NCBI RefSeq assembly: GCF_009827335.1 | Contig: NZ_WTYH01000001.1 | Span: 2,136,001 to 2,200,000, forward strand | DNA length: 64,000 nt | Direction: 5' to 3' | From: Aurantiacibacter arachoides | GTDB taxonomy: Bacteria > Pseudomonadota > Alphaproteobacteria > Sphingomonadales > Sphingomonadaceae | In this document: piece by piece, positions 1-38,902 of the stretch | Layout: every line of letters starts with the position of its first letter | Numbering within the stretch: position 1 is the stretch's first letter | Translations under genes and position numbers: made by a program | The notes under the pieces: generated by a model | What the model saw: only the letters and a program-made list of their open reading frames with translations | Databases searched by the model: none | Told to the model about the DNA's origin: nothing

Positions 1-123
1 GGCATAGTCCGTATAGGGCTGCGCCGCTGCCGTGGCCGGCGCGACCGCCATGATGGCGAACAGTGCGGCAGCCATTGCCAGCAGGGCGGCGAGGCGGTTG
101 AGGGTCAGTCCTGGGCGAGCCAT
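1..123 (-). CDS. Secreted protein, N-terminal fragment (runs off window)
   Basis: Only the first 41 codons are in the window. They read MARPGLTLNRLAALLAM followed by a hydrophobic core and an AxA-type end (PATAAA) before QPYTDYA, a textbook Sec signal peptide with cleavage near residue 34. The ATG lies inside the end of the upstream CoA-transferase gene (19-base overlap), so this is the next gene of the same operon and its product is exported. Nothing beyond the first seven mature residues is visible, so no function can be given. A periplasmic or outer-membrane role would fit a transport/catabolism operon, but that is inference. Confidence 0.6.
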   Translation of the reverse strand, partial: MARPGLTLNRLAALLAMAAALFAIMAVAPATAAAQPYTDYA

Positions 124-1259
124 TGCAGTATCTCCTCGCGGTGCTGGTCGAGCGTGGGGGGCGGTTCCTCGGTGCCCGGGCCGCCCGGCGTCATGGCGAA
201 CCCGGCGTTGGGCACGGCGACATCGGCGCGCGATCCGTTGGTGGGCACGGCAAAGCGCAGCAGGCTGCCCTCGCGGCAGAGAGAGGCCGCCTCGTCCACG
301 CCGCGGACCATGCCGCACGGAATGCCCGCTTCGCTCAGCACGCGCTCCCATTCGGGCGCGTTGCGCGTCAGCATGATCGCCTCGATCTCGGCGAACAGCG
401 CGTCGAAACTGGCGCGCCGCGCATCGGCGTCGACGAAGCGCGGATTGGTCAGCCAATCCTCTCGTCCGAGCACCCTGGCGAGCGATGCGAACTGGTTGTC
501 CTGCACCACGCCGAGCGACACGAAACGCCCGTCGGCGGCGCGAAAAACGCCGGCGGTCGGCAGTTCGGAATAGCCGGTGTTGCCCAGCCGCCGCAGCGTG
601 TTGCCGGTAGAAAGGAACGGGGTGAGCGCCGAGGTCATGAAGCTCAGCGTCGCATCCAGCATGGAGACGTCGATGTAGGCGCCCTCCCCGGTGCGGAAAC
701 GCTGGATCAGCGCGCCCAGAATGGCCGTGGCGGCGGTCTGCCCGGTCAGCGTGTCGACGATGGGGAAGCCGATGCGGATCGGCGGGTCGCCCTCCGCGCC
801 CGACAGCATCATCATGCCGCTGGTGGCCTGCACGATATTGTCGATCGCCGGCCAGTCGCGCTGCGGGCTGTCCTGCCCGTAACCCGAGATAGAGCAGTAG
901 ACGAGGCCGGGATTGCCGTCCCGCACCGCATCGTAACCGAAGCCCAGCCGGCCGATGGTGCCGGGGCGGAAGTTTTCCAGCAGCACGTCGCTCCTGGCCA
1001 CGATACGCCGGGCGATGGCGCGGTCGGCATCGGCCTTCAGGTCCAGCGCGATGCTTTTCTTGCCCACGTTGGCGGCGATGAAGGCGGGCGCCATGCCGCG
1101 CATTTCCCGGTTGCTGCCGTAGTTGCGAAACTGGTCCCCGTAGACGGATTCGATCTTGATCACCTCCGCACCCATCAGGCGCAACAGGTGGCTGGCAAAG
1201 GGCCCGGCCATGACGTGGCTGAAATCGGCCACGCGAACGCCGGCGAGCGGCTGGGTCAA
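105..1259 (-). CDS. CaiB/BaiF family CoA-transferase
   Basis: Class III CoA-transferase of about 384 residues, the usual single-domain length. The N-terminal PLAGVRVADFSHVMAGP, then GAEVIKIES, then FRPGTIGRLGFGYD are family hallmarks, and the Asp in FPIVDTLTG is the expected catalytic aspartate. Such enzymes move CoA between a CoA thioester and a free carboxylate in the cytoplasm. I choose the TTG at 1259 because it is preceded by GAGAGGAA, overlaps the upstream stop (TTGA) and gives the family's usual start; an ATG at 1274 would add five residues. It overlaps the DctP gene upstream and a secreted-protein gene downstream. Its likely job is to activate or recycle the CoA ester of the acid imported by the TRAP transporter of this operon. 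The substrate is unknown. Confidence 0.88.
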   Translation of the reverse strand: MTQPLAGVRVADFSHVMAGPFASHLLRLMGAEVIKIESVYGDQFRNYGSNREMRGMAPAFIAANVGKKSIALDLKADADRAIARRIVARSDVLLENFRPGTIGRLGFGYDAVRDGNPGLVYCSISGYGQDSPQRDWPAIDNIVQATSGMMMLSGAEGDPPIRIGFPIVDTLTGQTAATAILGALIQRFRTGEGAYIDVSMLDATLSFMTSALTPFLSTGNTLRRLGNTGYSELPTAGVFRAADGRFVSLGVVQDNQFASLARVLGREDWLTNPRFVDADARRASFDALFAEIEAIMLTRNAPEWERVLSEAGIPCGMVRGVDEAASLCREGSLLRFAVPTNGSRADVAVPNAGFAMTPGGPGTEEPPPTLDQHREEILQWLAQD

Positions 1260-2290
1260 TTCCTCTCTCCACACATGATCTGGTCGCGGCCCCGGATACT
1301 GGCGCGCGCGACGCGGTAGGCGGCTTCACCATCGATGCCGAAGCGCGACAGTTCGCCGGCATTGGCGCGGCCGATGCGCAGGTACAGGTCGTCAAAGGCC
1401 TGCTGGTCGGCGGCGCTGGGCTGGGTATACCGCACCACGTCCGCCGCGGCGTCGCGCCCGACCTGTTCGGACGCGATGATTTCCTCGGTCAGCGCCCGCT
1501 CCCACACCGGGGTGCTGCGCTCGAGCAGGGCGCGTTCGGCAGGGCTCAGCGCATTCCAGCGGTCCGCACCCATGGCACGCGCGGGATAGGCGCCGCGGGG
1601 CACCTTCAGTTCGAAATAGTTGGTCGCCACCTCGGTGAAATGCAGCGCACGAAAGGTATCGGGCGGCGCGATGACGCCATCGATCACGCCCTTGGCCAGA
1701 GCCGAATAGACCTCGCCCATCGGCATGTTGACCGGGTCCGCACCCAGTTCGCGCAGCACCGGCAGCAGTTCCGTCGGCGCGCGGATCCGCATACCGCGCA
1801 GGTCGTCGAGGCTGTTGACCACGCGCCCGCGCGTCAGCACGCCGGGCAGCAAGCCGCCCTGCACCGCCAGGATCTTCAGCCCCGCAAGCTCTCGTGTGAT
1901 CTGCGGCACGTCGCGCTCCATGCAGCGGTACATCGCCACCTGCGATTCCACGCTGTCCGCTCCGCTGTAAAACCCTGTCTGGATACGCAGCAGGTGGGTG
2001 CCGCCGCGCACGTAGATGGGCGTGATGAGGCCGATGTCGGCGACCCCGTGGCGCAGTTCCTCCATCGACATGTCGGCGGAAAGCAGCGCGCCAGACCACA
2101 CCGGGCGGATCGTCAATGCGCCGCCGCTCTCGGCCTCCACCCAGTCCATCCAGCGCTGGTCGGCGCGGCTGAAGGGGTGAGAGGGCGGATAGGGCGTGGC
2201 GTAGGTCAGCTCGGTGACGCCGGGGGGCACATCGCGCGCGCAGCCCAGCAGCATCAGCGCCAGCACAAGGGATGCGATCAGCCGCGTCAT
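1256..2290 (-). CDS. TRAP transporter substrate-binding lipoprotein (DctP family)
   Basis: 344-residue solute receptor of a TRAP (tripartite ATP-independent periplasmic) transporter. The N-terminus carries a lipobox (LMLLGC, Cys near 17), so it should be a membrane-anchored lipoprotein rather than the usual soluble DctP. Typical features follow: ATPYPPSHPF near the start, LRGMRIRAP with the conserved carboxylate-binding Arg around 170, and PMGEVYSALAKGVIDG around 195-210. Its permeases (DctQ, DctM) lie about 4 kb upstream in the same operon, separated from it by three CoA-enzyme genes, which is an unusual split. It overlaps the neighbouring genes at both ends. The ligand is probably an organic acid, judged from the family and from the CoA-transferases alongside. 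Confidence 0.88.
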   Translation of the reverse strand: MTRLIASLVLALMLLGCARDVPPGVTELTYATPYPPSHPFSRADQRWMDWVEAESGGALTIRPVWSGALLSADMSMEELRHGVADIGLITPIYVRGGTHLLRIQTGFYSGADSVESQVAMYRCMERDVPQITRELAGLKILAVQGGLLPGVLTRGRVVNSLDDLRGMRIRAPTELLPVLRELGADPVNMPMGEVYSALAKGVIDGVIAPPDTFRALHFTEVATNYFELKVPRGAYPARAMGADRWNALSPAERALLERSTPVWERALTEEIIASEQVGRDAAADVVRYTQPSAADQQAFDDLYLRIGRANAGELSRFGIDGEAAYRVARASIRGRDQIMCGERN

Positions 2291-3573
2291 GCTGCGCCCT
2301 CGGCCAGCAGGAAGTCCTCGACCATGCCGACCATCCGGTCATGATCCCAGACCTTGGCATCGACCATGTCGGCATCGATCATCAGCACCGGCACCCCGGC
2401 CGCGCGCAGGGCTGCGGCGGTCAGCTTGTTGCCGGACTGGCTCAGGCGATTGTCGGGCGGCAGCAGCATGATCGCGGCATCGATCCCGCAGCGCTGCGCC
2501 TCGCTGACCATCCAGCCGTTCATCCACGGCGGCAGGTGCAGCGTTTCGTTCATGCTGGCGATACGGCTGGCGAGCGCCTCCATCGGCTTGCCCTTCAGGT
2601 CGCGCAGATAGGCGGGGCCCGCGAACGGCATGTACATCGACCAGACGAAGACCGCGCCCATTTTCTCCTCCAGCGCCTGGTAGAAGCCGGGATCGTGCCA
2701 CACGCCCGCGCCGATCCACATCAGCCGGCGCCGTTCGTTGCTGGAGGCGCCATGGCCGCGCGCGACCAGTTCCAGCACCTCGTCGCGGAACGCTTTGGCG
2801 TGAGCCACCGCCCAGTCCGATCCGCGGTGCCATTGCGGGATCATGGTGTTGGGCATCTGTTCCGCGATGGAAACCGGGCACGGCCGCGCGGTGCCGATGG
2901 CCTGCGCGGCTTCCCAGATATAGCCTTCCTGCACGTTGATCTGCTCCATCAGGTGATGGAACTTCGCCTCGTCGAAGCGGCGGCCGGTGCGTTTTTCCAG
3001 AAGCGCGATCAGGTCGCGCATCTCGTCCACCATGTGGGCGATGCGGTCGGGTTGGTAAACGCGCTCCCAGTCGCTGCGCGAATGCGTGAACCACTCGGGA
3101 TCGGTGTCGGTCCAGGCGGGCGCTTCCATCGGGAAGAACTCCGATCCCATCGCCCTGGACCACTGGCCGAACACGTGCTGGATGCAGTCGCAGGTCAGCC
3201 GTGCGACCATCACCGTTGGCGTCGGCAAACCTCCCCAGGGCGCGGTCTCGGGTTCGTCCGCCAATGTGCAGGCAAGGCCGAGCGAGCAATACTTGCAGCT
3301 GTTGGCGGGATAGCCCCTTTCCACCATCGCATCGAAATAGCGCGAGGAAAGCTGCTTGGCCGAGATATAGGCCGACCACCACTGGTTGGTGATGATGGGG
3401 ATATCCATCGCGTGGAACAGTTCGTGCGGGGTATCGGCCTGCACGATGGCATAGGGCTCGCGGTCCTCCACCACCCGGCGGCGCAATTCCTGGCCGAACG
3501 CCTTTTGGTATTCGGTCGCCGCCGTGGTGCAGGCGAGCGTCTTTCGGCTGCGCTGGTTGGCCGAGGCGTTCAT
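2287..3573 (-). CDS. 2-hydroxyacyl-CoA dehydratase / benzoyl-CoA reductase-like subunit (HgdB family)
   Basis: 428 residues resembling the large [4Fe-4S] subunits of 2-hydroxyacyl-CoA dehydratases and BcrB/C-type reductases. It shows NQWWSAYISAKQ, the Cys cluster SCKYCSLGLAC around 107-117, and LTCDCIQHVFGQ around 145-156, the last matching the family TCD motif. The C-terminal half keeps the fold but where I would expect a third ligand Cys it reads LLPPDNRLSQSGNK, so cluster co-ordination may be altered. Family members remove water from 2-hydroxyacyl-CoA esters or reduce aryl-CoA and need a separate ATP-dependent activator; no activator gene is visible in this window. It overlaps the fused CoA-transferase (ATGA) and DctP genes. 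Family confidence is good; actual chemistry is uncertain. Confidence 0.8.
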   Translation of the reverse strand: MNASANQRSRKTLACTTAATEYQKAFGQELRRRVVEDREPYAIVQADTPHELFHAMDIPIITNQWWSAYISAKQLSSRYFDAMVERGYPANSCKYCSLGLACTLADEPETAPWGGLPTPTVMVARLTCDCIQHVFGQWSRAMGSEFFPMEAPAWTDTDPEWFTHSRSDWERVYQPDRIAHMVDEMRDLIALLEKRTGRRFDEAKFHHLMEQINVQEGYIWEAAQAIGTARPCPVSIAEQMPNTMIPQWHRGSDWAVAHAKAFRDEVLELVARGHGASSNERRRLMWIGAGVWHDPGFYQALEEKMGAVFVWSMYMPFAGPAYLRDLKGKPMEALASRIASMNETLHLPPWMNGWMVSEAQRCGIDAAIMLLPPDNRLSQSGNKLTAAALRAAGVPVLMIDADMVDAKVWDHDRMVGMVEDFLLAEGAA

Positions 3574-5672
3574 CGGAAAATTCCCTGTTCAAGCATGTCC
3601 TCGAACCGTTCCTGCGACAGGCCCGCTATGCGCGTGGCGACTTCGCGCGTGTGTTCGCCCATGCCAGGCGCGCGGAACGGCGCCATCGCATCGCGCGAAA
3701 AGGCGATGGGCGTGGCGATGTGCCCGAACGGGCCGAGCAACGGGTGGTCCAGCATGACGAGCGCCTCGCGCCCGGCGATCTGCGGGTCGTGCTCCAGCAA
3801 ATCCTCGCAATCCTGCAATGCCCCTGCGGCAAGACCGGCGGCTTGCAGTTCGGCGGCGATGGCGTGATCCTGGCGGGTGCGGGTCCAGGCGGCAATGTCC
3901 TCTCCGGTAATGGCCAGCAGGCGGCGCTTTTCCTCGGCGGAAAAGGCGCTGATCGCCACCCAGCGATCCTCGCCCGCGGCGGGGAACACGTCCTGGAAGA
4001 ACACCGCCGGATCGGCGTTGCCGGTGCGCTGAGGCTGTTCACCCGCAAGGGCGAGTGCGAGGCTGGGGCGCATCTGCTGCACGCAGATCTCGTACATGCT
4101 GGCATCGATATGGCAGCCCTGCCCGCTCTCGCGCCGGTGCTGCAGCGCGGCGGCGACGTGGCCCGCCATGACATAGGGCACGATGACATCGCCATAGGGC
4201 ACTGCCCCGGGGATGACGGGGTCGCCGTCGCGATAGCCGGTCAGGTAGGTGCGGCCCGACAGCGCGCCGCCGGTCCCGTCCACGCCCCATTCCTGCGCCA
4301 GCGGCCCGGTCTGGCCGAACACGCTGCCCGAGACCATGACAATGTCGGGCCGGCGCGCGGCAAGATCGTCGTAGCCCAACTCCAGCCTCGCCATGGTGCC
4401 TGGCGAGAAATTCTCGACCACCACATCCGCCCAGTCGATCAACGGGTCGATCACCGCGCGCGCTTCGGGCGCCTTGAGATCGATGGTGAGCGACCGCTTT
4501 GACGAATTGAGGTGCGCGAACCACGGCTTGTCGTCGAGGCTGTCGGCGCTAGAGGCGGAAACCTGCAGGTCGAGGCGCGACAGGTCGGGCCGGGCGCGGC
4601 TTTCGATCTTGACCACGTCCGCACCCATGTCGCCAAGCGTCTTGGTGGTGATGGAGCCGACCAACGCCCAGGCGAAATCGAGCACCTTTACCCCGGAAAG
4701 CGGGCCGGGTCGTTCGCCGGTGTGCACCGCGGGCGCGGCAGCTGTTGCCCGCTTGCCCGGACGGATCGCGGCGAAGCGTTCCGGCAGGCCATCGGCTGTA
4801 TCGAGAAAGCCCCGCGCGGCAAGGTGGCGGTCGGCCAGCACGTCGGCAGGTTCGTTGACCACGCAGGCGTTGATGCCGCGCTCCCGCCCTTCGGTAGCAA
4901 TCTCGGCCTTGGTGCGTGTGGCGAAGAAGGCGGCCATTGCGGCTTCCCACTCTGCGCGGGTTTCGGGCGCCAGGGTGGAGCGGTTGTAGGCGAGCCAGTC
5001 CACCTCGCGCATGGGATTGGCGAACCCCGCCTCGTCCATCCATTGCGACAGGGCGCGGTTGGCGGGCGCGCCGAGCCGCCCGGTCATCAACGCGTGGAAA
5101 CACCAGCCATCGGCCAACCGCCAGATGACCTGCACCTTGGCGCGGCCATAGGCGATGCAACCGCCTGCACGGTCCAGCTTGCGGCGGTCGAACTGCCACA
5201 CCAGCACGCCGTTGGTGTTGCGGCTCATCGCGACCTGCTGAACGGAAATGTCGACGTGCTGCCCCCAGGCGCCCTCTGGCCCGTGCGTGCCGCGGGCATA
5301 GTGGGCAGCCATGGCACCGGCGCCGGCAACCATGTCCGCGTGAAAGATGCAGGCATCGCCCGCTTCCTTCACCGGCTTGTGCCCCGGCTCACCCGTCAGC
5401 CGCAGCGCCCCGCCCATGGCCGAGGCCACGAGCTCACCCCCGCGCCAGTCCTCGCGCGGGCCGCCCGAACCGAACGTGGTGACAGAGACGTGGACGGCGC
5501 TGGCCGGGATGCCGAGGTGCGCGGTCGCGGCGAGGCCGAGGTCGTCGATCACGAAGCTGGCCCCGGCAACATCGCCGCCGATCTCGGCCCCCAGCGAGGC
5601 GAGATACCGCGCCAGGGGGCGCTGGGCCATGGCGCCAAGCGCGGCCACGCGGTGTCCGGCGAGCGGCATCAT
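3570..5672 (-). CDS. Tandem-fused CaiB/BaiF CoA-transferase (two domains)
   Basis: 700 residues, about twice the normal family length. The C-terminal half (about 315-700) is a canonical CaiB/BaiF domain: SGVKVLDFAWALVG, GADVVKIESRARPD, VVVENFSPGTMARLELGYDD, and VPYGDVIVPYV with the likely catalytic Asp. The N-terminal half is a more diverged copy that keeps MPLAGHRVAALG, TTFGSGGPREDW and an FHADMVAGAGAM segment where the catalytic Asp should lie. Such tandem proteins occur among aerobic acyl-CoA pathways. One copy may be structural, since class III transferases are interlocked dimers and the fusion can supply both protomers. Start ATGATG overlaps the upstream stop; the end overlaps the HgdB-like gene. 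Confidence 0.85.
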   Translation of the reverse strand: MMPLAGHRVAALGAMAQRPLARYLASLGAEIGGDVAGASFVIDDLGLAATAHLGIPASAVHVSVTTFGSGGPREDWRGGELVASAMGGALRLTGEPGHKPVKEAGDACIFHADMVAGAGAMAAHYARGTHGPEGAWGQHVDISVQQVAMSRNTNGVLVWQFDRRKLDRAGGCIAYGRAKVQVIWRLADGWCFHALMTGRLGAPANRALSQWMDEAGFANPMREVDWLAYNRSTLAPETRAEWEAAMAAFFATRTKAEIATEGRERGINACVVNEPADVLADRHLAARGFLDTADGLPERFAAIRPGKRATAAAPAVHTGERPGPLSGVKVLDFAWALVGSITTKTLGDMGADVVKIESRARPDLSRLDLQVSASSADSLDDKPWFAHLNSSKRSLTIDLKAPEARAVIDPLIDWADVVVENFSPGTMARLELGYDDLAARRPDIVMVSGSVFGQTGPLAQEWGVDGTGGALSGRTYLTGYRDGDPVIPGAVPYGDVIVPYVMAGHVAAALQHRRESGQGCHIDASMYEICVQQMRPSLALALAGEQPQRTGNADPAVFFQDVFPAAGEDRWVAISAFSAEEKRRLLAITGEDIAAWTRTRQDHAIAAELQAAGLAAGALQDCEDLLEHDPQIAGREALVMLDHPLLGPFGHIATPIAFSRDAMAPFRAPGMGEHTREVATRIAGLSQERFEDMLEQGIFR

Positions 5673-6544
5673 CGGGAAAGTCCTTCCAGGAAAGCGGCAA
5701 TTTCACCGTCCGCGCCGTCACGGGCGAACCAGTCGCGCCGGGTGAGGACCAGCGAGGGCACTCCCGCCTCTTCAAGGGCGCGGCGTTCGGCGGGGAGGTC
5801 CCAGGTCTGCGCCTCGTCTTCCTCGATCCGCCACACGATAACGGCCTGCGCCCGCGTTTCGGCGATGCGGCGCGTCATGCGGGCGGCCGGATCGGCAAAG
5901 GAGCGGGGCCCGGCATCGAGCGCGTGGAGCGCAGCGGAAAGCGCGGCGAAAGGGTCGGTGCCTGGTGCGCAGGGCGCGTCTTCGGTCCACTGCTGCGTGA
6001 TGGTCTGTCCGAAAGCGGCGAAGCCGGCGGCACGCACGGCCGCGTTCAGCCGCTCATCAGGCGCGGGCGTGCCGGTGACGAGACACACGGGGCCATCGCC
6101 TGGCGGAGTTGCCGAAGCCGGCACTTGCGCAGCACCCAGCGCATCGCCCGTCACGCCAAGCCGCTCGGCCAGGTCGCGCAGCTTGGCCTCGGTGCGGGCG
6201 ATGCTGGTGGGGCGCGGGATCTTGGCAATGTCGAAGATCAGCGGCTCGGGCCCACCTGCCCTGCCCGTGCGCTGAAGCTCGCGCAGGTAATAGAAAAGGC
6301 GCTGCGATGTATCGTCGGCGCGGCTGAACAGCACGGCATCGAGGTGATCGTACTCCCCCGCCAGCCAGTGATCGAGTACCAGCGGCGCCCAGGGCATGAA
6401 CTTGCTCTCCATGAACGCCTCGGCGCGCGTGGGGCTGCGGTCGAGATCGAAGGCGAGCGGGCCGGCGTGGCAGCCTGCCGCGCGCAGCACCTGGTGCGGC
6501 AGATTGGGCCCGGCGGTGGCGATGCGCGAAAGGGGCTGCGTCAT
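5669..6544 (-). CDS. 2-hydroxyacyl-CoA dehydratase-like second subunit
   Basis: About 291 residues, a shorter partner to the HgdB-like protein encoded two genes downstream. The segment FSRADDTSQRLFYYLREL (around 90-107) aligns by eye with the D-x2-R-x3-YLREL segment of dehydratase subunits, followed by PLIFDIAKIPRP. The normal TCD cysteine is RAD here, and the only N-terminal cysteine is in AAGCHAGPL, so this subunit probably holds no iron-sulphur cluster. Start chosen at 6544 (ATGACC) because it forms an ATGA overlap with the TRAP permease stop; an ATG eight codons earlier lies inside that gene. Assignment rests on motif similarity and on its company with the 428-residue homologue. Confidence 0.68.
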   Translation of the reverse strand: MTQPLSRIATAGPNLPHQVLRAAGCHAGPLAFDLDRSPTRAEAFMESKFMPWAPLVLDHWLAGEYDHLDAVLFSRADDTSQRLFYYLRELQRTGRAGGPEPLIFDIAKIPRPTSIARTEAKLRDLAERLGVTGDALGAAQVPASATPPGDGPVCLVTGTPAPDERLNAAVRAAGFAAFGQTITQQWTEDAPCAPGTDPFAALSAALHALDAGPRSFADPAARMTRRIAETRAQAVIVWRIEEDEAQTWDLPAERRALEEAGVPSLVLTRRDWFARDGADGEIAAFLEGLSR

Positions 6545-7851
6545 GTGCCGAGCACTCCGGGTAGCCACAGCACCATGGCGGGAAACAGGATGATCATCAG
6601 CAGGTGCACGAAGTCGCTGGCGAGGAAGGGCAGCACCCCGCGAAAGATCGTGCTGATCGATACGTCCTTGGCCACGCCCTGCATGATGTAGAGGTTCATC
6701 CCCAGCGGCGGGTGGACGAACCCGATCTCCATCGCGCGGGTGATGAAGATGCCGAACCAGATCGCGGTCAGCCCCGTCGCCTCCACGATGGGCAGCAGGA
6801 TCGGCGTCATCAGCAGCATCAGCGCAAGACCGTCGAGCACGGAGCCCAGCAGCAGCAGGATCAGCGCGATGAGGATAAGCGTCGCCACCTGCCCAAGCCC
6901 AAGGCCGCTGACGAGATCGCCCGCCGCCGCCGCCAGCCCCGTCACCCCGATGAAGACCGAGAAGATCAGCGCACCGATCAGGATCAGGTAGATGAGGCCG
7001 GTGGTGCGCAGCGTTTCCGAAAAGGCGTTGAACAGCGCTGCCCGGGTCAGCTTGCGGCGGATCATGGCGGTCACCAGCGCGCCCGCTGCGCCCACGGCGG
7101 CAGCCTCTGCCGGGCTGATCCAGCCCATGGCGATGCCGCCGATCACCAACGCCACGATGACGAGGATTTCCCAGATGCGCTTCAGCGATGCCAGCCGTTC
7201 GGCCCAGCTTGCCCGCTCACCCGTGGTTGCAAGACCCGGTCGCATCCGCACGAGGATGAAAACCACGATGGCGTAGAACAATGCCTGCGTAATGCCGGGG
7301 ATGATCGCCGCCGTGAACAGCGTGCCGATGCTGGTTTCGGCGATGATGCCGAACACGATCAGCGCGCCCGACGGCGGGATCATCTGGCCCAGCGTGCCGC
7401 CCGCGGCAATGGTGCCGGTCGACAGGCGGTCGTCGTATCCGCGGCGCTTCATCTCGGGATAGGCGACAAGGCCAACGGTGGCGGTCGTTGCCAGGCTCGA
7501 CCCGTTGATCGCGCCGAACCCGCCGCACCCGGCGATGGAGGCATAGGCGAGACCGCCCTTGCGATGGCCGAGGAACTTGGCCGCCGCGTCGAACAGGTCG
7601 CGGCTGGCGTCGATGGAAAAGAAGATGTGCGCCATGAACAGGAACAGCGGCAGCGTGCCGAGCTCGTACCGGGTCAGCGTGTCGATCACGACGACGCCCG
7701 CCTTGATCAGCGCGGCTTCCGGGCCGAGAACGATGGCAAGGCCGCCGATGCCGACCGCGCCCAGCACGGCGCCGATGCGCCCGCCCGCCAGCAGCAGCGC
7801 GAACAGGACGAGGATGCCCACGGCCCCGGTGGCAGCGCTGGCGTAGATCAT
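6541..7851 (-). CDS. dctM: TRAP transporter large permease (DctM family)
   Basis: 436 residues, the standard size, almost wholly hydrophobic with about a dozen membrane segments. Family marks include GGFGAINGSSLATTATVG (about 95-112), MKRRGYDDRLSTGTIAAGGTLG and IPPSGALIVFGIIAETSIG (around 130-165), and FIGVTGLAAAAGD. DctM forms the sodium-coupled translocation channel that works with DctQ and the DctP receptor. Start ATG overlaps the end of dctQ by four bases, and its stop overlaps the next gene. The arrangement DctQ-DctM with DctP displaced downstream is uncommon but all three parts of one transporter are present in this operon. Confidence 0.93.
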   Translation of the reverse strand: MIYASAATGAVGILVLFALLLAGGRIGAVLGAVGIGGLAIVLGPEAALIKAGVVVIDTLTRYELGTLPLFLFMAHIFFSIDASRDLFDAAAKFLGHRKGGLAYASIAGCGGFGAINGSSLATTATVGLVAYPEMKRRGYDDRLSTGTIAAGGTLGQMIPPSGALIVFGIIAETSIGTLFTAAIIPGITQALFYAIVVFILVRMRPGLATTGERASWAERLASLKRIWEILVIVALVIGGIAMGWISPAEAAAVGAAGALVTAMIRRKLTRAALFNAFSETLRTTGLIYLILIGALIFSVFIGVTGLAAAAGDLVSGLGLGQVATLILIALILLLLGSVLDGLALMLLMTPILLPIVEATGLTAIWFGIFITRAMEIGFVHPPLGMNLYIMQGVAKDVSISTIFRGVLPFLASDFVHLLMIILFPAMVLWLPGVLGT

Positions 7852-8309
7852 GCAGGGTCTCGCTGTGAGGGTCGCACCAGCCGCGCCGCCAGCAGGACGG
7901 CACAGGCGAACAGGCAGACATTGGCGATGAGGCGCAGCACCAGCCACGGCACGCCGACCAGCTCGCTCTGCTCGTGACCGTTCCACAGGTCCGCCGAGAG
8001 CCAGACCGAGCCCGCCAGCAGTGCCAGCACAAAGGCCAGCGTGAGGAGGTCGGAGAGAACGTCCGCCACCCGGCGTGCGGCTGGTGACAGGCGCTCCACC
8101 ACGATGCGGACGCGGGCATGGGACAGGTCCCAGGTCGCCACCACCAGCCCGATCGAGCCGGAGACGAGCACCACGGCCTGCATGAGTTCGATGGATCCGG
8201 TCAGCGGCAGCCCGATGTGCCGCCCGATCACGGCAAAGGTATCGACCAGCGTCGCGGCCAGCAGCGCCAGCCCGCCGATCCATATCACGATGTGCCTGGC
8301 CTTGCTCAT
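7848..8309 (-). CDS. dctQ: TRAP transporter small permease (DctQ family)
   Basis: 153-residue inner-membrane protein with four predicted transmembrane helices (about 8-28, 42-62, 85-108 and 122-145). This is the size and topology of DctQ subunits. The segment LTGSIELMQAVVLVSGSIGL fits the conserved E-x-L-M region of the family. DctQ pairs with DctM to form the permease. The start ATGAGC overlaps the stop of the CapA-like gene and the stop overlaps the dctM start, so translation is probably coupled. No frameshift or odd codon use seen. Confidence 0.88.
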   Translation of the reverse strand: MSKARHIVIWIGGLALLAATLVDTFAVIGRHIGLPLTGSIELMQAVVLVSGSIGLVVATWDLSHARVRIVVERLSPAARRVADVLSDLLTLAFVLALLAGSVWLSADLWNGHEQSELVGVPWLVLRLIANVCLFACAVLLAARLVRPSQRDPA

Positions 8310-9418
8310 GCGGCAATCTCCACGGTGAAATCGTCGGCAATGCGCACCGCTGGCAGGTCGGCGGCGGTGGTGATGCCTTCCACGTAACGGGCGATGGCAC
8401 GGGCACGCTCGCCCGCGGCCAGCACCGGGCGGCCCGGCGGCTCCACGTCCACGGGAACGATGGCCGCCCCCACGCTGCCATCGGCGCGCAGGGTCAGCAT
8501 GCCGATGAAGGCGTTGACGGCCTCGGGATGGAACGGCGCCAGGGGGTAGGCCGGGTCGGGCGTGAAGCCGAACATCCGCTGCCGCTGCTCGGCCCAGGCG
8601 CGGCGGCCTTCGTGGTCCTGCGTGGGCGATAGCGCGGAGGTCACCACGCAGCCGTTGCCCAGGCCATGATAGATCGGCTTGCCACGGTGAAACTCGATCC
8701 CGCGCACGATATGCGCATGGTGCGAGAGGACGGCGTCGGCGCCTGCATCGATGGCGGCCCGCGCGATCTCGCGTTCGTAGGGTTGCAGCATGGCCGGGGT
8801 ATGCACCTGCCCCTTGTGCATGGCCACCAGCACGCAGTCGGCCCCTGCCCGCGCGGCCGCGATATCGTCCAAAAGGGTCTCGAGGGCATCCGGGTGGACG
8901 CGCTCGAGACAGGCTTTGGGAGATACCGCCGCTCCATCGGCAGCGACGATAGGAAGATAGGCGCACCCCGCCCGGCCCGGCGCGGCCCAGGCCATTTCCG
9001 GCCCCACGCAGTTGTAGCTCAGCAGCGCCACGCGCCGTCCGCCGACATCGGCGAAGGCGGGCGCGCGTGCCGCTGCAAGGTCGGCCCCGGCCCCGGCGTG
9101 GGCAATGCCTGCCGCATCCAGCAGAGCGACGGTGTCGGCGATGCCCTGCGCCCCGCAATCGGCAATGTGGTTTCCGGCAAGGCTGACCATGCCGATCCCG
9201 GCGCGTGCGATGGCGGCGATGTTTTCGGGCGGTGCGCCGGGAGCAGGCACGTCGCCTGCCATCTCGTGCGCGCTGGTGGTGTGCGGCACCTCCAGATGCG
9301 CAATGCCGAGGTCGGCGGCGCGGATCGCGGGCGCGATACCCGACAGCCAGTGATCGGCATCGGGCTCGTCGAGCACGAGATCGCCGAGCACGGCTATCTG
9401 GATATCATCGTTCATCAT
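8306..9418 (-). CDS. CapA/PgsA-like metallophosphatase-family protein
   Basis: About 370 residues matching the bacterial capsule-synthesis CapA (PGA_cap) fold. It begins IQIAVLGDLVLDEPD, then LAGNHIADCGAQGIADTVALL (split here as two adjacent motifs, about 85-105), VAMHKGQ around 205, AGADAVLSHHAHIVRGIE around 235-252 and GKPIYHGLGN. These are the metal-site Asp/Asn/His positions of the calcineurin-like superfamily. No signal peptide is visible, so a cytoplasmic location is likely. CapA homologues are linked to poly-gamma-glutamate synthesis, but no synthetase genes are here; within a transport operon it may act on a polymeric, amide or phosphate-containing substrate. Two adjacent ATG codons (9418, 9415) are possible starts. 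It follows the TonB receptor stop by 19 bases. Confidence 0.78.
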   Translation of the reverse strand: MMNDDIQIAVLGDLVLDEPDADHWLSGIAPAIRAADLGIAHLEVPHTTSAHEMAGDVPAPGAPPENIAAIARAGIGMVSLAGNHIADCGAQGIADTVALLDAAGIAHAGAGADLAAARAPAFADVGGRRVALLSYNCVGPEMAWAAPGRAGCAYLPIVAADGAAVSPKACLERVHPDALETLLDDIAAARAGADCVLVAMHKGQVHTPAMLQPYEREIARAAIDAGADAVLSHHAHIVRGIEFHRGKPIYHGLGNGCVVTSALSPTQDHEGRRAWAEQRQRMFGFTPDPAYPLAPFHPEAVNAFIGMLTLRADGSVGAAIVPVDVEPPGRPVLAAGERARAIARYVEGITTAADLPAVRIADDFTVEIAA

Positions 9419-9437
9419 GCGACCCGTGTAGCGCGGC

Positions 9438-12143
9438 TTAGAAGCGGACGCGCGCCCCCACCGCAAAGAACCGGCCCACCGGGTTGGCGGCGGTGGCATC
9501 GTAACCGCCGCTGCCGTTGCCACTGGGCGCCAGGTTCACATAGGGCGGATCCTGGTCCAGCACGTTGCGGACCTCGCCGGTCAGTTCCAGCCCGTTCAGG
9601 CGATCGAAGCCGAAAGCCTCGCCGATGCGGTAGGTTACGCTCAGGTCCACCGGCGTATAGCTGTCGACGTCCTGATTGGGCGTGACGAGGTTGTTGGTGT
9701 AGCCGCCCACGTGGGTGGCGGAGATGCGGCTGGTGAACGGCCCGTGATCCCAGTTCGCGGCGACGCGCGCCTTGAACTTCAAGGGCTGGAAGATGATGTT
9801 CAGCTGGTCCACCAGGTCGGCCTGCGGGGCCACGGCGACCTGATAGTCGGTGAGGTACGTGCCCGAGGCGCTCAGCCGGACCACGTCGTTCGCGCCGAAG
9901 TCCATGCGATAGTTCACGGTGGCGTCGATACCCCGGGTGATCGACTTGCCCAGATTGCGCGAACGGCCATCGACGAACACGTCGATATTGGCGAGGCTGC
10001 CGCCGGGGAAGGCGCCGAGCACGCCCACGCCGGCATCGATCTGCCGCTGGATTTCCGCCCGCGCCGCCGCGCCGCGCAGGATCACGTCGGTCCCGGCGAA
10101 CTGGCCTTCCTGCCCCAGGATGGTCAGGTTCGACAGGTTGGCGCTGACCTGATTGTCATAGGCGACATCGAAGTAGGTCACCGACAGGCGCAAGTCGTCG
10201 ACGGGTTCGAAGTCTGCACCGACGGACCATGTCTCCGCGGTCTCCGGGCCAAGATCGAGGTTGGGTCCCGAAAGGGCAACGCCCACCAGCGGCGCGCCGC
10301 CGGCCGGGTTCTGGTAGTTCTGCACGAACAGGTTGTTGCTGTTGCCGTAGATCTCGGGGATCGTGGGTGCGCGGAACGAGGTGCCGTAGGAGCCGCGCAG
10401 GGTCAGCCGGTCGAACGGCTCCCAGTTGATACCGAATTGCGGGTTGGTGGTATCGCCGGCATCGGAATAGCTGTCGTAACGGATGGCCGCGACCATCTCC
10501 AGCGACTGGAAGCCGGGGCGGGCGTTATCCGGCCCGAAGATCGGCACCAGCAATTCGCCATAGACCGAATCCACCGTGCGGTCGAAACTGCGGAAGGCAA
10601 TGGGCGTGGTCGGGGCGCCGCGCGCCGAACCCAGGTCCACGGTGAAATCCTGGCGCTCGTAACCCACGGCCATGCGCACCTCGCCACCGGGCAGCTGGAA
10701 CAACGGCCCGCTGGCCCCTACCTCGTAGAACGTCAGTTCGCCATCGGTAGGGGCAAGGAATATCTGGTTGAAGATGCCGTCGATCACGGACTGGCTGGTC
10801 CGCCCGCCGAACGGATCGAAGGCAGTGGCCGGGTTGGTGCTGGTGAGAGCAGCGTTGAGCGCGGCGTTGTTGATGCCGGTATAGCTGCCGGAAAAGTCGT
10901 GCGTTTCGCCGTAGGCGAACAGGCCCTCCAGCTCCCAGTCGAACGGCAGCTGCACGCGCACGCCGGGGCTGATCTGGTAGCTTTCGGCGGAACCGAACGA
11001 TTCCTGCGTCGGAATGTTCGGGCCGACGAAGGCGTAATCGACCTGGTAGCTGGTGCCGGTGAAGCCCGCCGGACGCACGAAGAACGGGTTGGTCTGCGGC
11101 ACCGTCAGGCGGGTGGAGGGATTGGCGTTCAGGCGGCGAAAGTTCCGCTTGGAATAGAAGCCGTCGTAAAACACCTCGAGCCAGTCGGTCACTTCGAAGG
11201 TGCCGGTGGAATTCACCGAATCGTAGCTCTGTTCCGGGATCAGATCCTGCCCGCTCAGCGCGTCGCAGCGATTGGCGGTGCCGGCGACAAGCGAGCCTGC
11301 CTGCGCGGCGGCGAAATTGAGCGGCAGGGCAAAAGTCGTGCCGCCCGCGATCAGCGTGCCGGGGTTGCACCGGGTAACGCGGTAGTCGTTGCCGCCGAAC
11401 GGCACCTGGTTGCTGGTGAAGAAGTCACGCTCGTCGCCGTTGAGGTTGGATCGCTCGACGTGTTCGTAGGCGACCATGAACTGCCCGCGGTCGAACCGGA
11501 TGCCGCCCGCCGCGCCGGCAGACCATTCGTCAAAGGCATGATCGTCGGAAAAGCCGTAGCGCGCAAAAGCCTCGAACCCGTCGAGGCTGCGGCGCGGGAT
11601 GATGTTGACGACGCCCGCCACCGCGTCCGAACCGTAGATGGCCGAGGCACCGTTGGCGACCACTTCCACCCGCTCCACGCCCAGCGTCGGCAGGACGGAC
11701 GGATCGGTGGAGCGCGAGTTGTTGACCACCCGGTGTCCGTCGATCAGCACCAGCGTCGCATAGGGGCCGATGCCGCGCAGGTTCACGCTGTTGCCAAAGG
11801 TGATGTTGCCCGAGCCGCCGGCCTGGCCGCGCGAGTTTTCCGACACGCCGAGATCGAAGACCTGCGGCAGTTCCTTGATGACGCGGTCGATGGTGACGTT
11901 GCCCGAGGCGGCGATTTCTTCCTGGCCAAGCACCACGGCGGTTGCACCCACCGGCGCATTGCCCTGGCTGACCCGGCTGCCGGTCACGATGATCGCGTCG
12001 GGAACGTCCTCGTCCTGCACCGGCGGCGGGGTAACGGCCTGGGCAAAGGCCGGCTGGCTGGCGACCAGCGACGCAACGGCAATGGCAAGGGCAGAGCCGC
12101 TGCGCGCAAGCGCGACGGCCGTCGAATTGGCAAGTACAGACAT
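9438..12143 (-). CDS. TonB-dependent outer-membrane receptor
   Basis: 901 residues. A signal peptide (SALAIAVASLVASQPAFAQ) is followed by a short linker and the plug: DAIIVTGSRVSQGNAP, the plug segment around VFDLGVSENSRGQ, NLRGIGPYATLVLIDGHR and GVERVEVVANGASAIYGSDA (about 90-165). The barrel ends in the expected aromatic (ARVRF). There is no N-terminal extension for an anti-sigma partner, so it is a plain transporter. Start chosen at 12143 after a strong GGGGAGAGG. It is the first gene of the operon and precedes CapA, TRAP and CoA-enzyme genes, so it should import the operon's substrate across the outer membrane. Divergent from the GntR gene, 89 bases away, which probably controls it. Confidence 0.93.
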   Translation of the reverse strand: MSVLANSTAVALARSGSALAIAVASLVASQPAFAQAVTPPPVQDEDVPDAIIVTGSRVSQGNAPVGATAVVLGQEEIAASGNVTIDRVIKELPQVFDLGVSENSRGQAGGSGNITFGNSVNLRGIGPYATLVLIDGHRVVNNSRSTDPSVLPTLGVERVEVVANGASAIYGSDAVAGVVNIIPRRSLDGFEAFARYGFSDDHAFDEWSAGAAGGIRFDRGQFMVAYEHVERSNLNGDERDFFTSNQVPFGGNDYRVTRCNPGTLIAGGTTFALPLNFAAAQAGSLVAGTANRCDALSGQDLIPEQSYDSVNSTGTFEVTDWLEVFYDGFYSKRNFRRLNANPSTRLTVPQTNPFFVRPAGFTGTSYQVDYAFVGPNIPTQESFGSAESYQISPGVRVQLPFDWELEGLFAYGETHDFSGSYTGINNAALNAALTSTNPATAFDPFGGRTSQSVIDGIFNQIFLAPTDGELTFYEVGASGPLFQLPGGEVRMAVGYERQDFTVDLGSARGAPTTPIAFRSFDRTVDSVYGELLVPIFGPDNARPGFQSLEMVAAIRYDSYSDAGDTTNPQFGINWEPFDRLTLRGSYGTSFRAPTIPEIYGNSNNLFVQNYQNPAGGAPLVGVALSGPNLDLGPETAETWSVGADFEPVDDLRLSVTYFDVAYDNQVSANLSNLTILGQEGQFAGTDVILRGAAARAEIQRQIDAGVGVLGAFPGGSLANIDVFVDGRSRNLGKSITRGIDATVNYRMDFGANDVVRLSASGTYLTDYQVAVAPQADLVDQLNIIFQPLKFKARVAANWDHGPFTSRISATHVGGYTNNLVTPNQDVDSYTPVDLSVTYRIGEAFGFDRLNGLELTGEVRNVLDQDPPYVNLAPSGNGSGGYDATAANPVGRFFAVGARVRF

Positions 12144-12232: not shown

Positions 12233-12964
12233 ATGGACGACAAGATTGTTGACAATATCATTGGCGATACGCAGGCTGCCCGGATGCAGGATGCCATCGA
12301 GAGACTCGCCAAGCGCGGGCCCAGCGCCGCCGATATCGCCGACTGGATCCGTTCGCAGATACGCGGCAACCGCCTTGTCCCCGGCCAGCGGCTGATTGAG
12401 GTCGACATCATCCGGCAGACCGGCGGCAGCCGCTTCAAGGTGCGCGAGGCATATCAGCGCCTGGCCGCGGAGGGGCTGCTGGAGATCGAGGAATATCGCG
12501 GCGCCAGCGTGCGCGGCACGTCCATGGCCGAGGTGCGGCAGCTCTATCGCGCCCGCGCCGCGCTGGAAGGGCTGTGTGCTGGCGATTTCGTGCGCAAGGC
12601 GACGGACGACCAGATCGCCCGGCTGGAGGAGGTGGCGCGCGCGATGGAGGAATGCGTGGAGGCCGGGCGGCCGGAAGACTTTGCCCGCATCAATGCCGAA
12701 TGGCACACCCTGCTGATGCACGGCGCGGGCAACTTCGCCATCGAGGATATCGTCAGGCGGCTCAACACGCCGGTGCATCACCTGCAGTTCGGCACCTTCT
12801 ATCGCGGCGAACGATTGCGCGAAGCGGCACGCGATCACCGCCACATCCTGGCCGCGATCCAGGCCCGCGACGCCGACGCCGCCGAACGGGCCATGCGCCA
12901 GCACGTGGAGAACGGCCTCGTCTTCTTGAGCGAGCTTGACCGCGCCGTGCACCTGGAGGCCTGA
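12233..12964 (+). CDS. GntR-family transcriptional regulator (FadR/FCD subfamily)
   Basis: 243 residues. A winged helix-turn-helix (about 30-95, including GNRLVPGQRLIEVDIIRQTG, then FKVREAYQRLAAEGLLEIEE) is followed by an all-helical FCD ligand domain (about 105-235). The FCD domain keeps the Asp/His metal pattern: the first acidic site around EFADFARINAEWH (my reading, ARINAEWH is certain), then HRHILAAIQARDADAAE and AMRQHVENG. FCD regulators usually sense carboxylic acids. It is divergent from the TonB/TRAP/CoA operon and very likely represses it until the substrate appears. The Shine-Dalgarno before the first ATG is poor; a later ATG at codon 18 would place an ATTGT-TG-ACAAT palindrome outside the coding region. 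Confidence 0.86.
   Translation: MDDKIVDNIIGDTQAARMQDAIERLAKRGPSAADIADWIRSQIRGNRLVPGQRLIEVDIIRQTGGSRFKVREAYQRLAAEGLLEIEEYRGASVRGTSMAEVRQLYRARAALEGLCAGDFVRKATDDQIARLEEVARAMEECVEAGRPEDFARINAEWHTLLMHGAGNFAIEDIVRRLNTPVHHLQFGTFYRGERLREAARDHRHILAAIQARDADAAERAMRQHVENGLVFLSELDRAVHLEA
12245..12256. promoter_or_regulatory. Palindrome ATTGT-TG-ACAAT, candidate GntR operator
   Basis: Perfect 5-base arms separated by two bases, just inside the annotated start of the GntR gene and about 100 bases upstream of the divergent TonB receptor gene. TTGT/ACAA arms fit the TxGTxxxACxA type of FadR-subfamily sites only loosely. It also contains a TTGACA hexamer. Position favours a shared operator for the regulator and the receptor operon, which is inference. 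Confidence 0.4.
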
Positions 12965-13011: not shown

Positions 13012-13025
13012 ATACCAGCCGATAT
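13012..13025. promoter_or_regulatory. TetR operator-like site 1 (ATACCAGCCGATAT)
   Basis: The motif overlaps the tetR start codon. It agrees at 12 of 14 positions with site 2 at 13654-13667 and shares the ATAC/TAT ends with site 3. Binding here would block tetR expression, giving autoregulation. Based on repetition of the motif, not on a known consensus. Confidence 0.5.
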
Positions 13026-13623
13026 GGAAAAGCTTGCAGTCAGAGGTCGCCCGCGCGAATTCGATCCCGATACGGCTCTCGCCGCGGCACTGCTGGTGTT
13101 CTGGACGAAGGGATACGAAGGCGCGTCGCTGTCGGACCTGACGGAGGCGATGGGCATCACCCGCCCCAGCCTCTACGCCGCATTCGGCAACAAGGAGGCG
13201 CTGTTCCGCCAGGCGCTCGATCTCTACCAACGGGACAAGACCGCCTACATCGGCGAGGCCGTGCGCGAGCCGACCGCCCGGGCCGTGGCGCAGTACATGC
13301 TGCAAGGCGCGGTCGATACCGCCACCGGCGGGGAATGCCGCGGGTGCATGGGCGTGATTTCCACCGTCGCCTGCCAGAGCGTGGAGCCCTCCATCCGCGA
13401 TGACGTCAACCAGCGCGCGGAAAGCGCAAAGGCGCTGATTGTCGAGCGGATGCAGCAGGCGATCGACGCGGGCGAATTCCCCGCGCCCACACAAGCCCAG
13501 GCCATCACCCGCTACCTGTTGGCCATCATGCAGGGCATCTCCGTCCAGGCGCAGGCGGGTGCCAGCGAGGACGACCTGCGCCAGCTTGTCGCGGTTGCTC
13601 TGGCGGGCTGGCCCTCCCGGTAA
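13024..13623 (+). CDS. TetR/AcrR-family regulator of the adjacent RND efflux operon
   Basis: 199 residues. The N-terminal DNA-binding domain is clear: RGRPREFDPDTALAAALLVF, then KGYEGASLSDLTEAMGITRP and SLYAAFGNKEALFRQALDLY (about 8-65). The ligand domain contains a Cys-rich patch GGECRGCMG (about 101-109) and VACQSV, typical of the YfiR/NemR-like subfamily in which Cys may be redox or electrophile sensors. It precedes the three efflux genes in the same direction with a 255-base gap holding two operator-like repeats, so it is the probable repressor of the pump and of itself. Inducer unknown. Confidence 0.88.
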   Translation: MEKLAVRGRPREFDPDTALAAALLVFWTKGYEGASLSDLTEAMGITRPSLYAAFGNKEALFRQALDLYQRDKTAYIGEAVREPTARAVAQYMLQGAVDTATGGECRGCMGVISTVACQSVEPSIRDDVNQRAESAKALIVERMQQAIDAGEFPAPTQAQAITRYLLAIMQGISVQAQAGASEDDLRQLVAVALAGWPSR

Positions 13624-13653
13624 TCTGCTGATTTTGCTGCACTGCGCAAAAAA

Positions 13654-13667
13654 ATACCGGGCGATAT
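13654..13667. promoter_or_regulatory. TetR operator-like site 2 (ATACCGGGCGATAT)
   Basis: Lies 30 bases after the tetR stop and 212 bases before the efflux start. It matches site 1 at 12 of 14 positions. Placed to repress the efflux promoter. A possible -35 (TTGACC, starting at 13679) follows it. Confidence 0.5.
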
Positions 13668-13699
13668 AGAATTAGCGCTTGACCTGAACCTCACATAAC

Positions 13700-13713
13700 A
13701 TACTTTGCGGTAT
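13700..13713. promoter_or_regulatory. TetR operator-like site 3 (ATACTTTGCGGTAT)
   Basis: Inverted repeat with ATAC/GTAT arms and a six-base centre, 46 bases from site 2 start to start (about four helical turns). It matches site 2 at 10 of 14 positions. With site 2 it brackets the probable efflux-operon promoter. Confidence 0.42.
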
Positions 13714-13878
13714 AGAAAGCTGCCGGCACGCTCCTTCGACCCGGGGAGGTGCCGTCAGTGCGATGCTGCGCATGCGGCATCGTGCCGCCTGGCCCAACTC
13801 CAGTTCCCGATCATCCGTCGCCGCCCGGCGCCCGGACGAACCAGCTTGCGCCCGAGGTCCGGCGCGAAGGAATTTCGC

Positions 13879-15198: not shown

Positions 15199-15261
15199 CC
15201 GGCACGCCCCCTCTCCCGATCTGCCGACCCGCTGTTTCCCTTTGCCCCGACGGAGGCCCCC

Positions 15262-18200: not shown

Positions 18201-18453
18201 GATCCTGATGACCAGCTTCGCCTTCATCCTGGGCGCAGTGCCGCTGGTGGTCGCCACGGGCGCCGGCGCGGAACTGCGCCAGGCCCTTGGCACGGCGGTG
18301 TGCTTCGGGATGCTGGGCGTCACCGGTTTCGGCCTGGTGTTCACACCCACCTTTTACGTGGTGTGCCGCGCGCTTGGTGACCGGCTCGACGCCTGGCGCC
18401 ATCGCGGCAAGCCCGTAGCCGTCACCGACCCCCGCACCGTTCCTGCCGAATAG
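15262..18453 (+). CDS. RND multidrug efflux pump, HAE1 family
   Basis: 1063 residues, the usual AcrB/MexB size, with twelve membrane segments. It starts MRLSRFFIDRPIFAAVIAIV. The proton-relay Asp pair is present in GIVVDDAIVVVENVER (about 405-420), and the matching Lys in LAAKNAILIVEFARQG (about 950). Other signatures are ETVADTVANPIEQEINGV, FIPQQDQGYF and the gene-duplicated periplasmic loops. It exports hydrophobic drugs, dyes or detergents using the proton gradient, in complex with the adaptor upstream and the NodT channel downstream. Gap to the adaptor is 63 bases, to NodT 14 bases: one operon, presumably repressed by the TetR protein. Confidence 0.95.
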   Translation: MRLSRFFIDRPIFAAVIAIVITLVGAISYVFLPVSQYPEVVPPTVTVNAVYPGASAETVADTVANPIEQEINGVDGMLYLSSQSTGDGRATITVTFEPGTDLDEAQVLVQNRVAIAEPRLPEEVQRLGLVTRKTTPDFLLIVNLISPDGSLSREYLSNYAQTRIRDRLQRVEGVGDVQLFGQRELAMRVWIDPGRAAALGLTATDIVQALRSQNVQVAAGTLGQQPSPDAAFQLNVETQGRFTSPDQFENVVIRTDEQGRQVRVRDVARVEIGAQDYATSAYLGQQDSVIVPVFQQPGSNALASAEAIKAEMQSISADFPAGMEYRIVYNPTEFISESISAVVHTLLEAIVLVVLVIVAFLQKARASLIPVLAIPVSLVGTFAVLAMLGFSLNNLSLFGLVLAIGIVVDDAIVVVENVERNLEEGLSPLEAARKSMDEVGGALVAIVLVLCAVFVPTLFIGGLSGAFYQQFAVTISAATIISLIVSLTLSPALSAKMLCRHEPLPADAPRWRHAVERAGDRFNAAFERFSDSYAALTARLVRMPRRMMATYAGLIALTVGALAWTPSGFIPQQDQGYFLTVIQLPPGSSTTRTDAVMRQVAERVLKIDGISNTVMLSGFDGTSETQSASAAAAYWVLDDFADRADKGQSVDALIAQAQAATADITEARLMIVKPPVIRGIGSAGGFRMVIEDRNGQGYAAMQEVANAVIAQANAQEGLAGVYTFFDTGTPRVRADIDRDKAQVLGVSPASVFETLQVYLGSAFINEFNLLGRTYRVTAQADAPFRDQASDIAGLYTRSSNGAMVPLGSVATFSDTAGPYRVSRYNLAPAVAIDGDTAPGYATGQSLQTMEDVASASLPPGYDTEWTGIAFQQDTAGNTAIYVFGLAVLLVFLVLAAQYESLVMPLAIILIVPMCLLAAMVGVNLRGMDNNVLTQIGLIVLIALAAKNAILIVEFARQGELRDGLSPIDAAVQAARTRLRPILMTSFAFILGAVPLVVATGAGAELRQALGTAVCFGMLGVTGFGLVFTPTFYVVCRALGDRLDAWRHRGKPVAVTDPRTVPAE

Positions 18454-38836: not shown

Positions 38837-38902
38837 CCAGCCGCGCTCAACGTGTCGAGTTGCGGCGTGTGTCCTGACCATCGAAGTGCTAGGCAATTCC
38901 GG

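Follow-up and report, generated by a model that had tools for sequence, protein, structure and literature searches.

A conserved operon joining TonB and TRAP transport genes, family III CoA-transferases and a pair of HGD-D-type proteins in aerobic proteobacteria

Organization of the operon

The DNA analyzed here is a window of 64,000 nucleotides from Aurantiacibacter arachoides, corresponding to bases 2136001-2200000 of the single-contig 2.94 Mb genome. At the beginning of this window lies, on the minus strand, an operon which combines the genes of a TonB-dependent receptor, a TRAP transporter, a CapA-like protein, two proteins of the family III CoA-transferase type and two proteins of the HGD-D type. 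The genes and their scores are as follows (positions in the window; the name HgdS is coined here; N-termini were judged by eye):

9438..12143, minus: TonB-dependent receptor, 901 aa; PF00593 123 bits, PF07715 56 bits; signal-peptide-like N-terminus
8306..9418, minus: CapA, PGA_cap-like protein, 370 aa; PF09587 184 bits; no signal peptide seen
7848..8309, minus: DctQ, TRAP small permease; PF04290 59 bits
6541..7851, minus: DctM, TRAP large permease; PF06808 307 bits, TIGR00786 314 bits (cut-off 268)
5669..6544, minus: HgdS, small HGD-D-like protein, 291 aa; PF06050 25.5 bits (cut-off 28.4)
3570..5672, minus: CaiB2, two-domain family III CoA-transferase-like protein, 700 aa; PF02515 346 bits in 2 stretches
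2287..3573, minus: HgdB, HGD-D family protein, 428 aa; PF06050 165 bits
1256..2290, minus: DctP, TRAP solute-binding protein; PF03480 89 bits; lipobox-like N-terminus
105..1259, minus: CaiB1, family III CoA-transferase, 384 aa; PF02515 357 bits; TTG start
1..123, minus: first codons of a CocE/NonD (S15) hydrolase, whole gene L002:14123-12384; PF02129, PF08530; TIGR00976 197 bits (cut-off 66)
12233..12964, plus: divergent GntR/FCD regulator; PF07729 104 bits, PF00392 42 bits

The eight genes from capA to caiB1 are joined by seven 4-base overlaps, six of them ATGA and one TTGA, and the receptor gene is located 5′ of capA at a distance of 19 bases. A preliminary description of this window had proposed such a single operon, and the coordinates, the overlaps and the gap were all reproduced. 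The interval given there, 1 to 12143, cuts the operon short, as the hydrolase, aldehyde dehydrogenase (ALDH) and pobA genes lie outside the window. In all there are thirteen genes in the same direction, from the TonB receptor to pobA, the final four being located mostly past the window edge (L002:14123-8768 for the S15 hydrolase, an alpha/beta hydrolase, ALDH and PobA). The CocE/NonD gene starts at window position 123 and overlaps caiB1 by 19 bases, the alpha/beta hydrolase gene is joined to it by an ATGA overlap, and the ALDH gene and pobA follow after short gaps. For caiB1 the TTG start was chosen, a GTG at 1274 being also open. The alpha/beta hydrolase has no Pfam or NCBIfam match and was named from its sequence and from weak matches of a relative. 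Signal-peptide-like starts are also seen on both hydrolases, and neither HgdS, CaiB2, HgdB nor CaiB1 showed such a start. The divergent regulator had been described as a GntR protein of a carboxylate-sensing type, and the domain matches place it among the FCD-type GntR proteins.

Conservation of the gene order

A search for HgdB in named genome contigs yielded 64 loci, of which 17 are too short to judge the gene order and 47 span the interval. The order capA-dctQ-dctM-hgdS-caiB2-hgdB-dctP-caiB1 on one strand is kept in 42 of these 47 loci (40 exactly, two with a further CapA match downstream) and deviates in L055, L057, L081, L085 and L086. The hosts include Aurantiacibacter, Altererythrobacter, Novosphingobium, Sphingosinicella, Asticcacaulis, a metagenome-assembled genome (MAG) of Parvularcula, Steroidobacter and gammaproteobacterial MAGs. 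The order is thus not unique to this genome, nor are the homologues dispersed, which were the outcomes that the preliminary description had named as speaking against its operon; the eight genes stand together in distant hosts as well, from Sphingomonadales, Asticcacaulis and Parvularcula to Gammaproteobacteria. One of the deviating loci, L085:5602-13600 of Novosphingobium sp. ERN07, retains only fragments of the TonB gene, dctP and caiB1 without a dctQ or dctM match and appears to be a decaying operon.

The overlaps recur as well. In-frame 4-base NTGA overlaps are found in the 40 exact-order loci at capA/dctQ (33), dctQ/dctM (35), dctM/hgdS (24), hgdS/caiB2 (37), caiB2/hgdB (40), hgdB/dctP (40) and dctP/caiB1 (22), which is more than chance. 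In 36 of these loci the same strand carries a TonB match, and an S15 match is likewise present in 36. Such a match was counted wherever in the locus the similarity had an E-value up to 1e-8, and unrelated members of the families may therefore be included. A GntR match was obtained for 21 of the 40 loci, and many of the flanks are too short to decide on its presence. In the plasmid copy of Croceicoccus marinus no TonB gene lies between the CocE and CapA genes.

Among 298 genomes of the family 15 encode an HgdB with 77-100% identity, four a relative with 39-43% identity and two only a distant HGD-D protein. The identities of the other components rise along with that of HgdB (Spearman 0.42 to 0.92, uncorrected for phylogeny and not used as evidence).

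The HGD-D-type proteins

The places of the canonical cysteines, three in HGD-D proteins and presumably the ligands of an open [4Fe-4S] cluster, were taken from two HGD-D proteins of another genome (G088), one of which covers the first two places only. In the HgdB proteins of the form described above (type I) two of the canonical cysteines, C93 and C128, are kept in 24 of 24 sequences, and the third is replaced by Asn or Ser in all 24. In addition the cysteines C96, C102, C130, C232 and C362 are invariant in these sequences. In a larger alignment of 69 rows, including type II (see below) and other HGD-D proteins, Cys occupies each of the seven positions in 60 to 65 rows. For HgdS, 56 rows were aligned, and no cysteine is common to all of them.

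The four HgdB relatives with 39-43% identity, which we call type II, sit in a rearranged operon. In all four loci DctQMP and CaiB1 precede HgdB, CapA follows it and a TonB match is found; an S15 match is found in three, and in three a further CaiB-type sequence lies between HgdB and CapA. Here HgdS and HgdB form a single open reading frame of 716-799 aa with HgdS at the N-terminus (4/4), and PF06050 matches the one fusion tested in two stretches. This fusion supports that HgdS and HgdB act together. All seven cysteines of type I (93, 96, 102, 128, 130, 232, 362) are absent in 4/4 type II proteins; the seven may form a metal or cluster site that was lost as a unit. A search with the fused protein gave 439 matches from 8000 scored candidates, and the named ones among the best 120 are mostly from Sphingomonas and Novosphingobium. 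Among 246 genomes of the order 11 match the fusion, two of them along the fusion (G432 and G433) and the others over the HgdB part.

The activator family TIGR00241 was found in none of the 19 genomes with the operon, and no PF01869 activator was found in the genome of A. arachoides itself. As a positive control, the TIGR00241 search did find the activator in G088, near the ordinary HGD-D genes of this genome. Given the negative outcome for the activator and the change or loss of cluster ligands, an activator-driven radical dehydration or ring reduction by HgdS-HgdB is unlikely, and judged by its residues the pair does not look like a standard 2-hydroxyacyl-CoA dehydratase pair.

The nearest solved relatives of HgdB are BzdO, MbdO and the HadB-type chain 3o3m. 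HgdB aligns over the greater part of its length with 9g87 (E 1e-7) and 3o3m (E 2e-6), and over 175-315 with 8s02 (BzdO/MbdO: 8s02 and 9g87). Unlike these proteins, type I HgdB lacks the third canonical cysteine and carries the five further invariant ones, and type II has none of them.

CoA-transferases, CapA and transport proteins

In CaiB1 the place of Asp202, which we take to be that of the active-site Asp of family III CoA-transferases, is Asp in the window protein and in 62 of 69 aligned sequences; the best scores of CaiB1 are with oxalate/formyl-CoA-type transferases, below their cut-offs. The corresponding places of CaiB2 were matched by motif. Residue 528 in the second domain is Glu in 62 of 63 rows and Asp in the sole type II row, and the place in the first domain is Gln in 42, Glu in 20 and His in one; the active-site Asp is therefore in neither domain of the 63 rows apart from the type II row. 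As CaiB2 has Glu or Gln at the Asp places, only CaiB1 can be called with confidence a predicted CoA-transferase. The best solved match of CaiB2 is the benzylsuccinate CoA-transferase 9fn0 (168 bits), which has two CaiB-like chains, whereas CaiB2 has two domains in one protein and differs from 9fn0 in Glu528 and in the Gln or Glu of the first domain, each in 62/63. A link to dimethylsulfoniopropionate (DMSP) was considered, as the DMSP enzyme DddD has a two-domain CaiB as well, and rejected; the titles and abstract starts of the DMSP-related papers listed gave no such operon.

In CapA the residues H84, H201, H206, H233, H234 and H236 are at least 95% conserved in 58 sequences, four of type II included, and likely form a metal site. 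Its solved matches are MslH-type chains only (e.g., 8gq9; name from NF038314), one protein and its variants, and say little on the reaction.

The TRAP transporter is complete, with PF03480, PF04290 and PF06808 all above their cut-offs. DctP C17, R168 and R170 are at least 95% conserved in 65 aligned sequences, and the two arginines presumably bind a carboxylate, which agrees with the carboxylate substrate assumed in the preliminary description. The best solved matches of DctP are 4n6d, 4nap and 4pgn. The ligands of 4nap and 4pgn are probably aromatic (D-tryptophan and indole pyruvate), which is not used as evidence here.

Association with genes of aromatic catabolism

The solved structures closest to the operon ALDH are vanillin, salicylaldehyde and 4-hydroxybenzaldehyde dehydrogenases (vanillin dehydrogenase 837 bits, salicylaldehyde dehydrogenase 767 bits), and PobA passes TIGR02360 with 614 bits against a cut-off of 539. 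Elsewhere in the same genome a FerB passing NF006588 adjoins a FerA-like ligase, which is 52% identical to an "acetate--CoA ligase family" protein of Croceicoccus and whose NCBIfam matches are below cut-off.

Among the 298 genomes FerB is present in 19 of the 19 genomes with the operon and in 47 of the 279 others (Fisher p 4e-14), and the ALDH in 18 of 19 and 40 of 279. The E-value thresholds were up to 1e-70 for FerB, up to 1e-150 for ALDH and up to 0.001 for the family search with UxaC, which served as a lifestyle control. In the flanks of the 64 loci an ALDH was found seven times, PobA twice, FerA and FerB once each, and UxaC and ManD not at all, UxaC being a weak control here because the flanks reach little beyond S15/TonB upstream. 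The ALDH gene and pobA are the last genes of the operon in A. arachoides and also in two congeneric relatives (L025, L095). In G204 (L096) FerB and ALDH are located after the operon, and in G165 (L115) ALDH and PobA beyond the regulator. In Croceicoccus marinus the plasmid-borne operon is followed, on the opposite strand, by the genes of a FerA-like ligase, FerB, a DUF3237 protein and an ALDH, and on the plasmid of Novosphingobium ES2-1 a tannase/feruloyl esterase gene is found about 7 kb downstream of the operon, together with a MmgE/PrpD gene.

Neighbouring genes and other features

A hypothetical protein, here called the H538 protein, has a length of about 500-540 aa and scores weakly for CXXCH, MauG and cytochrome c; it adjoins a TonB receptor and a partner of 256-271 aa. 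It is found in the flanks of 17 of the 64 operon loci, in the type II locus L089 and also on pNL2 of Novosphingobium aromaticivorans. Examples are:

L043:14053-15669: H538-type protein, weak CXXCH / MauG
L125:163-1677: H538-type protein, weak CXXCH / MauG
L128:4890-6392: H538-type protein, weak CXXCH / MauG

A second module is made up of CapA2, MmgE/PrpD and a membrane-like protein for which Pfam gave no match (L126:26743-34455; L128:9375-12940), with TonB and tannase in L126, and adjoins the operon in several Novosphingobium loci.

Within the window the GntR regulator gene is followed at 13024-18453 by a TetR-like gene and by genes of an RND efflux adaptor and pump (assigned by eye). The region 24000-48000 has a lower GC content (0.56-0.63 as compared to about 0.66-0.70 around it) and looks like an integrated island; by eye it contains a tyrosine-recombinase-like reading frame (25917-27197) and one resembling an MreB-type actin homologue (38852-39919). 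Searches of the window for tRNA genes and Rfam families gave no match.

Steroid catabolism was considered because of the Steroidobacter hosts and nearby P450 genes, and steroid-type acids had been among the candidate substrates of the preliminary description. The one P450 tested, located close to the Croceicoccus copy, scores about equally against CYP125-type enzymes and numerous other P450s, so that we found no specific support for this idea and rejected it.

Discussion

To judge from the hydrolases and from the ALDH and pobA genes at the end of the operon, the substrate may be an ester or amide and the route an aromatic one. The reading which we favor, and which we hold with evenly divided confidence, is that of a conserved catabolic operon of aerobic proteobacteria, for which we infer the substrate, the compartments and the sequence of the steps, and also what HgdS-HgdB, CaiB2 and CapA catalyze. 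The TonB receptor would bring a scarce aromatic ester or other carboxylic conjugate over the outer membrane, and the CocE/NonD and alpha/beta hydrolases would cleave it in the periplasm. DctP, a predicted lipoprotein, may then capture the freed carboxylate for import by DctQM, and CaiB1 would transfer CoA onto it. HgdS-HgdB, probably with CaiB2, would convert the thioester without recourse to the radical chemistry that an activator drives in ordinary 2-hydroxyacyl-CoA dehydratases, and the aromatic half may enter the hydroxycinnamate/4-hydroxybenzoate route through the FerA-like ligase, FerB, an aromatic aldehyde dehydrogenase and PobA. The full path seen in the preliminary description is retained here as regards outer-membrane uptake, periplasmic capture, import and CoA transfer, but its acyl-CoA dehydration or reduction is not, in view of the changed or lost ligands and of the negative activator search.

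Several observations weigh against this catabolic operon with an aromatic branch. The UxaC control is enriched too (15/19 as compared to 74/279, p 7e-6), so that lifestyle explains part of the co-occurrence of FerB and ALDH; moreover the thresholds differ between the co-occurrence searches and the genomes are not independent. FerA and FerB each occur in only one of the 64 flanks and PobA in two, plus an uncounted edge fragment in L066, and the gammaproteobacterial flanks have no ALDH, PobA, FerA or FerB match. FerB together with ALDH is found in one of three annotated plasmid neighbourhoods: in about 41 kb around the EMRT-2 and ES2-1 copies no FerA-like ligase, FerB, DUF3237 protein or ALDH is annotated, and on the ES2-1 plasmid UxaC and ManD adjoin the operon upstream. 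One genome with the operon (G069) lacks the ALDH. Free cinnamates do not require CaiB1, since a FerA-like ligase is already encoded by the host. Finally, with HgdB proteins only 39-43% identical, type I and type II may act on different substrates.

The substrate might instead be a hydroxy- or polycarboxylic acid that is not aromatic, or an ester of such an acid, with ALDH, PobA and FerB merely sharing the lifestyle of plant-matter degraders. We consider this possible though rather unlikely. The enrichment of UxaC would fit, as would the scores of CaiB1 with oxalate/formyl-CoA-type transferases and the MmgE/PrpD genes that accompany some of the copies in Novosphingobium and Croceicoccus, one of which, when tested, matched IDS-epimerase and cis-aconitate decarboxylase; however, ALDH is linked in 7/64 loci as compared to 0/64 for UxaC and ManD, and ALDH and pobA terminate the operon here and in L025 and L095. 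The CapA protein with its PGA_cap domain could also point to a capsule or poly-gamma-glutamate locus, to which we give practically no credence: CapA heads the row of TRAP and CoA-transferase genes in 42/47 loci, and the annotation around the three plasmid copies (L125-L127) contains no capsule gene, no dedicated search having been made.

Two further explanations concern the chemistry of HgdS-HgdB. That an aerobe simply acquired an ordinary anaerobic-type 2-hydroxyacyl-CoA dehydratase or benzoyl-CoA reductase operon is very improbable and was already disfavored by the failure to find an activator, the score of HgdS below the Pfam cut-off and the changed cluster ligands, even though HgdB is a clear PF06050 member with BzdO, MbdO and 3o3m as nearest solved relatives. 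An aerobic counterpart of the Fld pathway seems less far-fetched but still doubtful. CaiB1 would then make an aryl-2-hydroxyacyl-CoA, e.g., dihydroxyphenyllactyl-CoA from a rosmarinate-type ester, and HgdS-HgdB would dehydrate it to hydroxycinnamoyl-CoA for FerB and ALDH. A family III CoA-transferase with two HGD-D subunits is the Fld arrangement, FerB as consumer of the product is present in 19/19 operon genomes, and a CocE/NonD hydrolase suits an ester. Such a dehydration, however, is known to proceed via a ketyl radical, and the activator was found in 0/19 operon genomes, the third cluster cysteine is absent in 24/24 type I proteins and all canonical ones in 4/4 of type II.

Returning to the catabolic operon proposed above, it resembles several known systems in part. 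The phenyllactate dehydratase (Fld) system (FldABC-FldI) of Clostridium likewise has a family III CoA-transferase and two HGD-D proteins, whereas in our operon no activator was found, the cluster cysteines are altered or lost and the genes are joined to those of TonB, TRAP, hydrolase and CapA proteins. The FerA-FerB hydroxycinnamate route of sphingomonads is encoded at another place in the A. arachoides genome and, in Croceicoccus marinus, next to the operon. A list of sphingomonad aromatic genes includes ferA, ferB and aromatic aldehyde dehydrogenases (PMC12997858); in contrast to the gene content of the operon, its main text makes no use of the terms CoA transferase, dehydratase and TRAP. 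The preliminary description knew of no pathway with this gene set in an aerobe, and in titles and abstract starts of the open-licence PubMed Central (PMC) literature we likewise found no description of the combination. The best 15 of 674 papers on Fld-type pathways in aerobes contained, at the same depth, nothing on the gene set.

The operon is thus a strictly ordered and widespread system, presumably catabolic, of which we found no description in the literature searched. It offers a natural experiment on the reshaping of an oxygen-sensitive enzyme family, type I keeping part of the cluster cysteines and adding others and type II having none of them, with otherwise matching operon parts. More speculatively, and in our opinion improbably, HgdS-HgdB could found an oxygen-tolerant HGD-D branch which handles 2-hydroxyacyl- or aryl-hydroxyacyl-CoA without an archerase activator, in type II also without the Fe-S ligands of the family, and which would enable aerobes to convert the hydroxy-acid moiety of phenolic esters from plants to hydroxycinnamoyl-CoA or a thioester related to it. 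If the substrate is indeed a plant phenolic ester, the operon would add a route from uptake to CoA activation to the aerobic catabolism of lignin-related and other plant phenolics.

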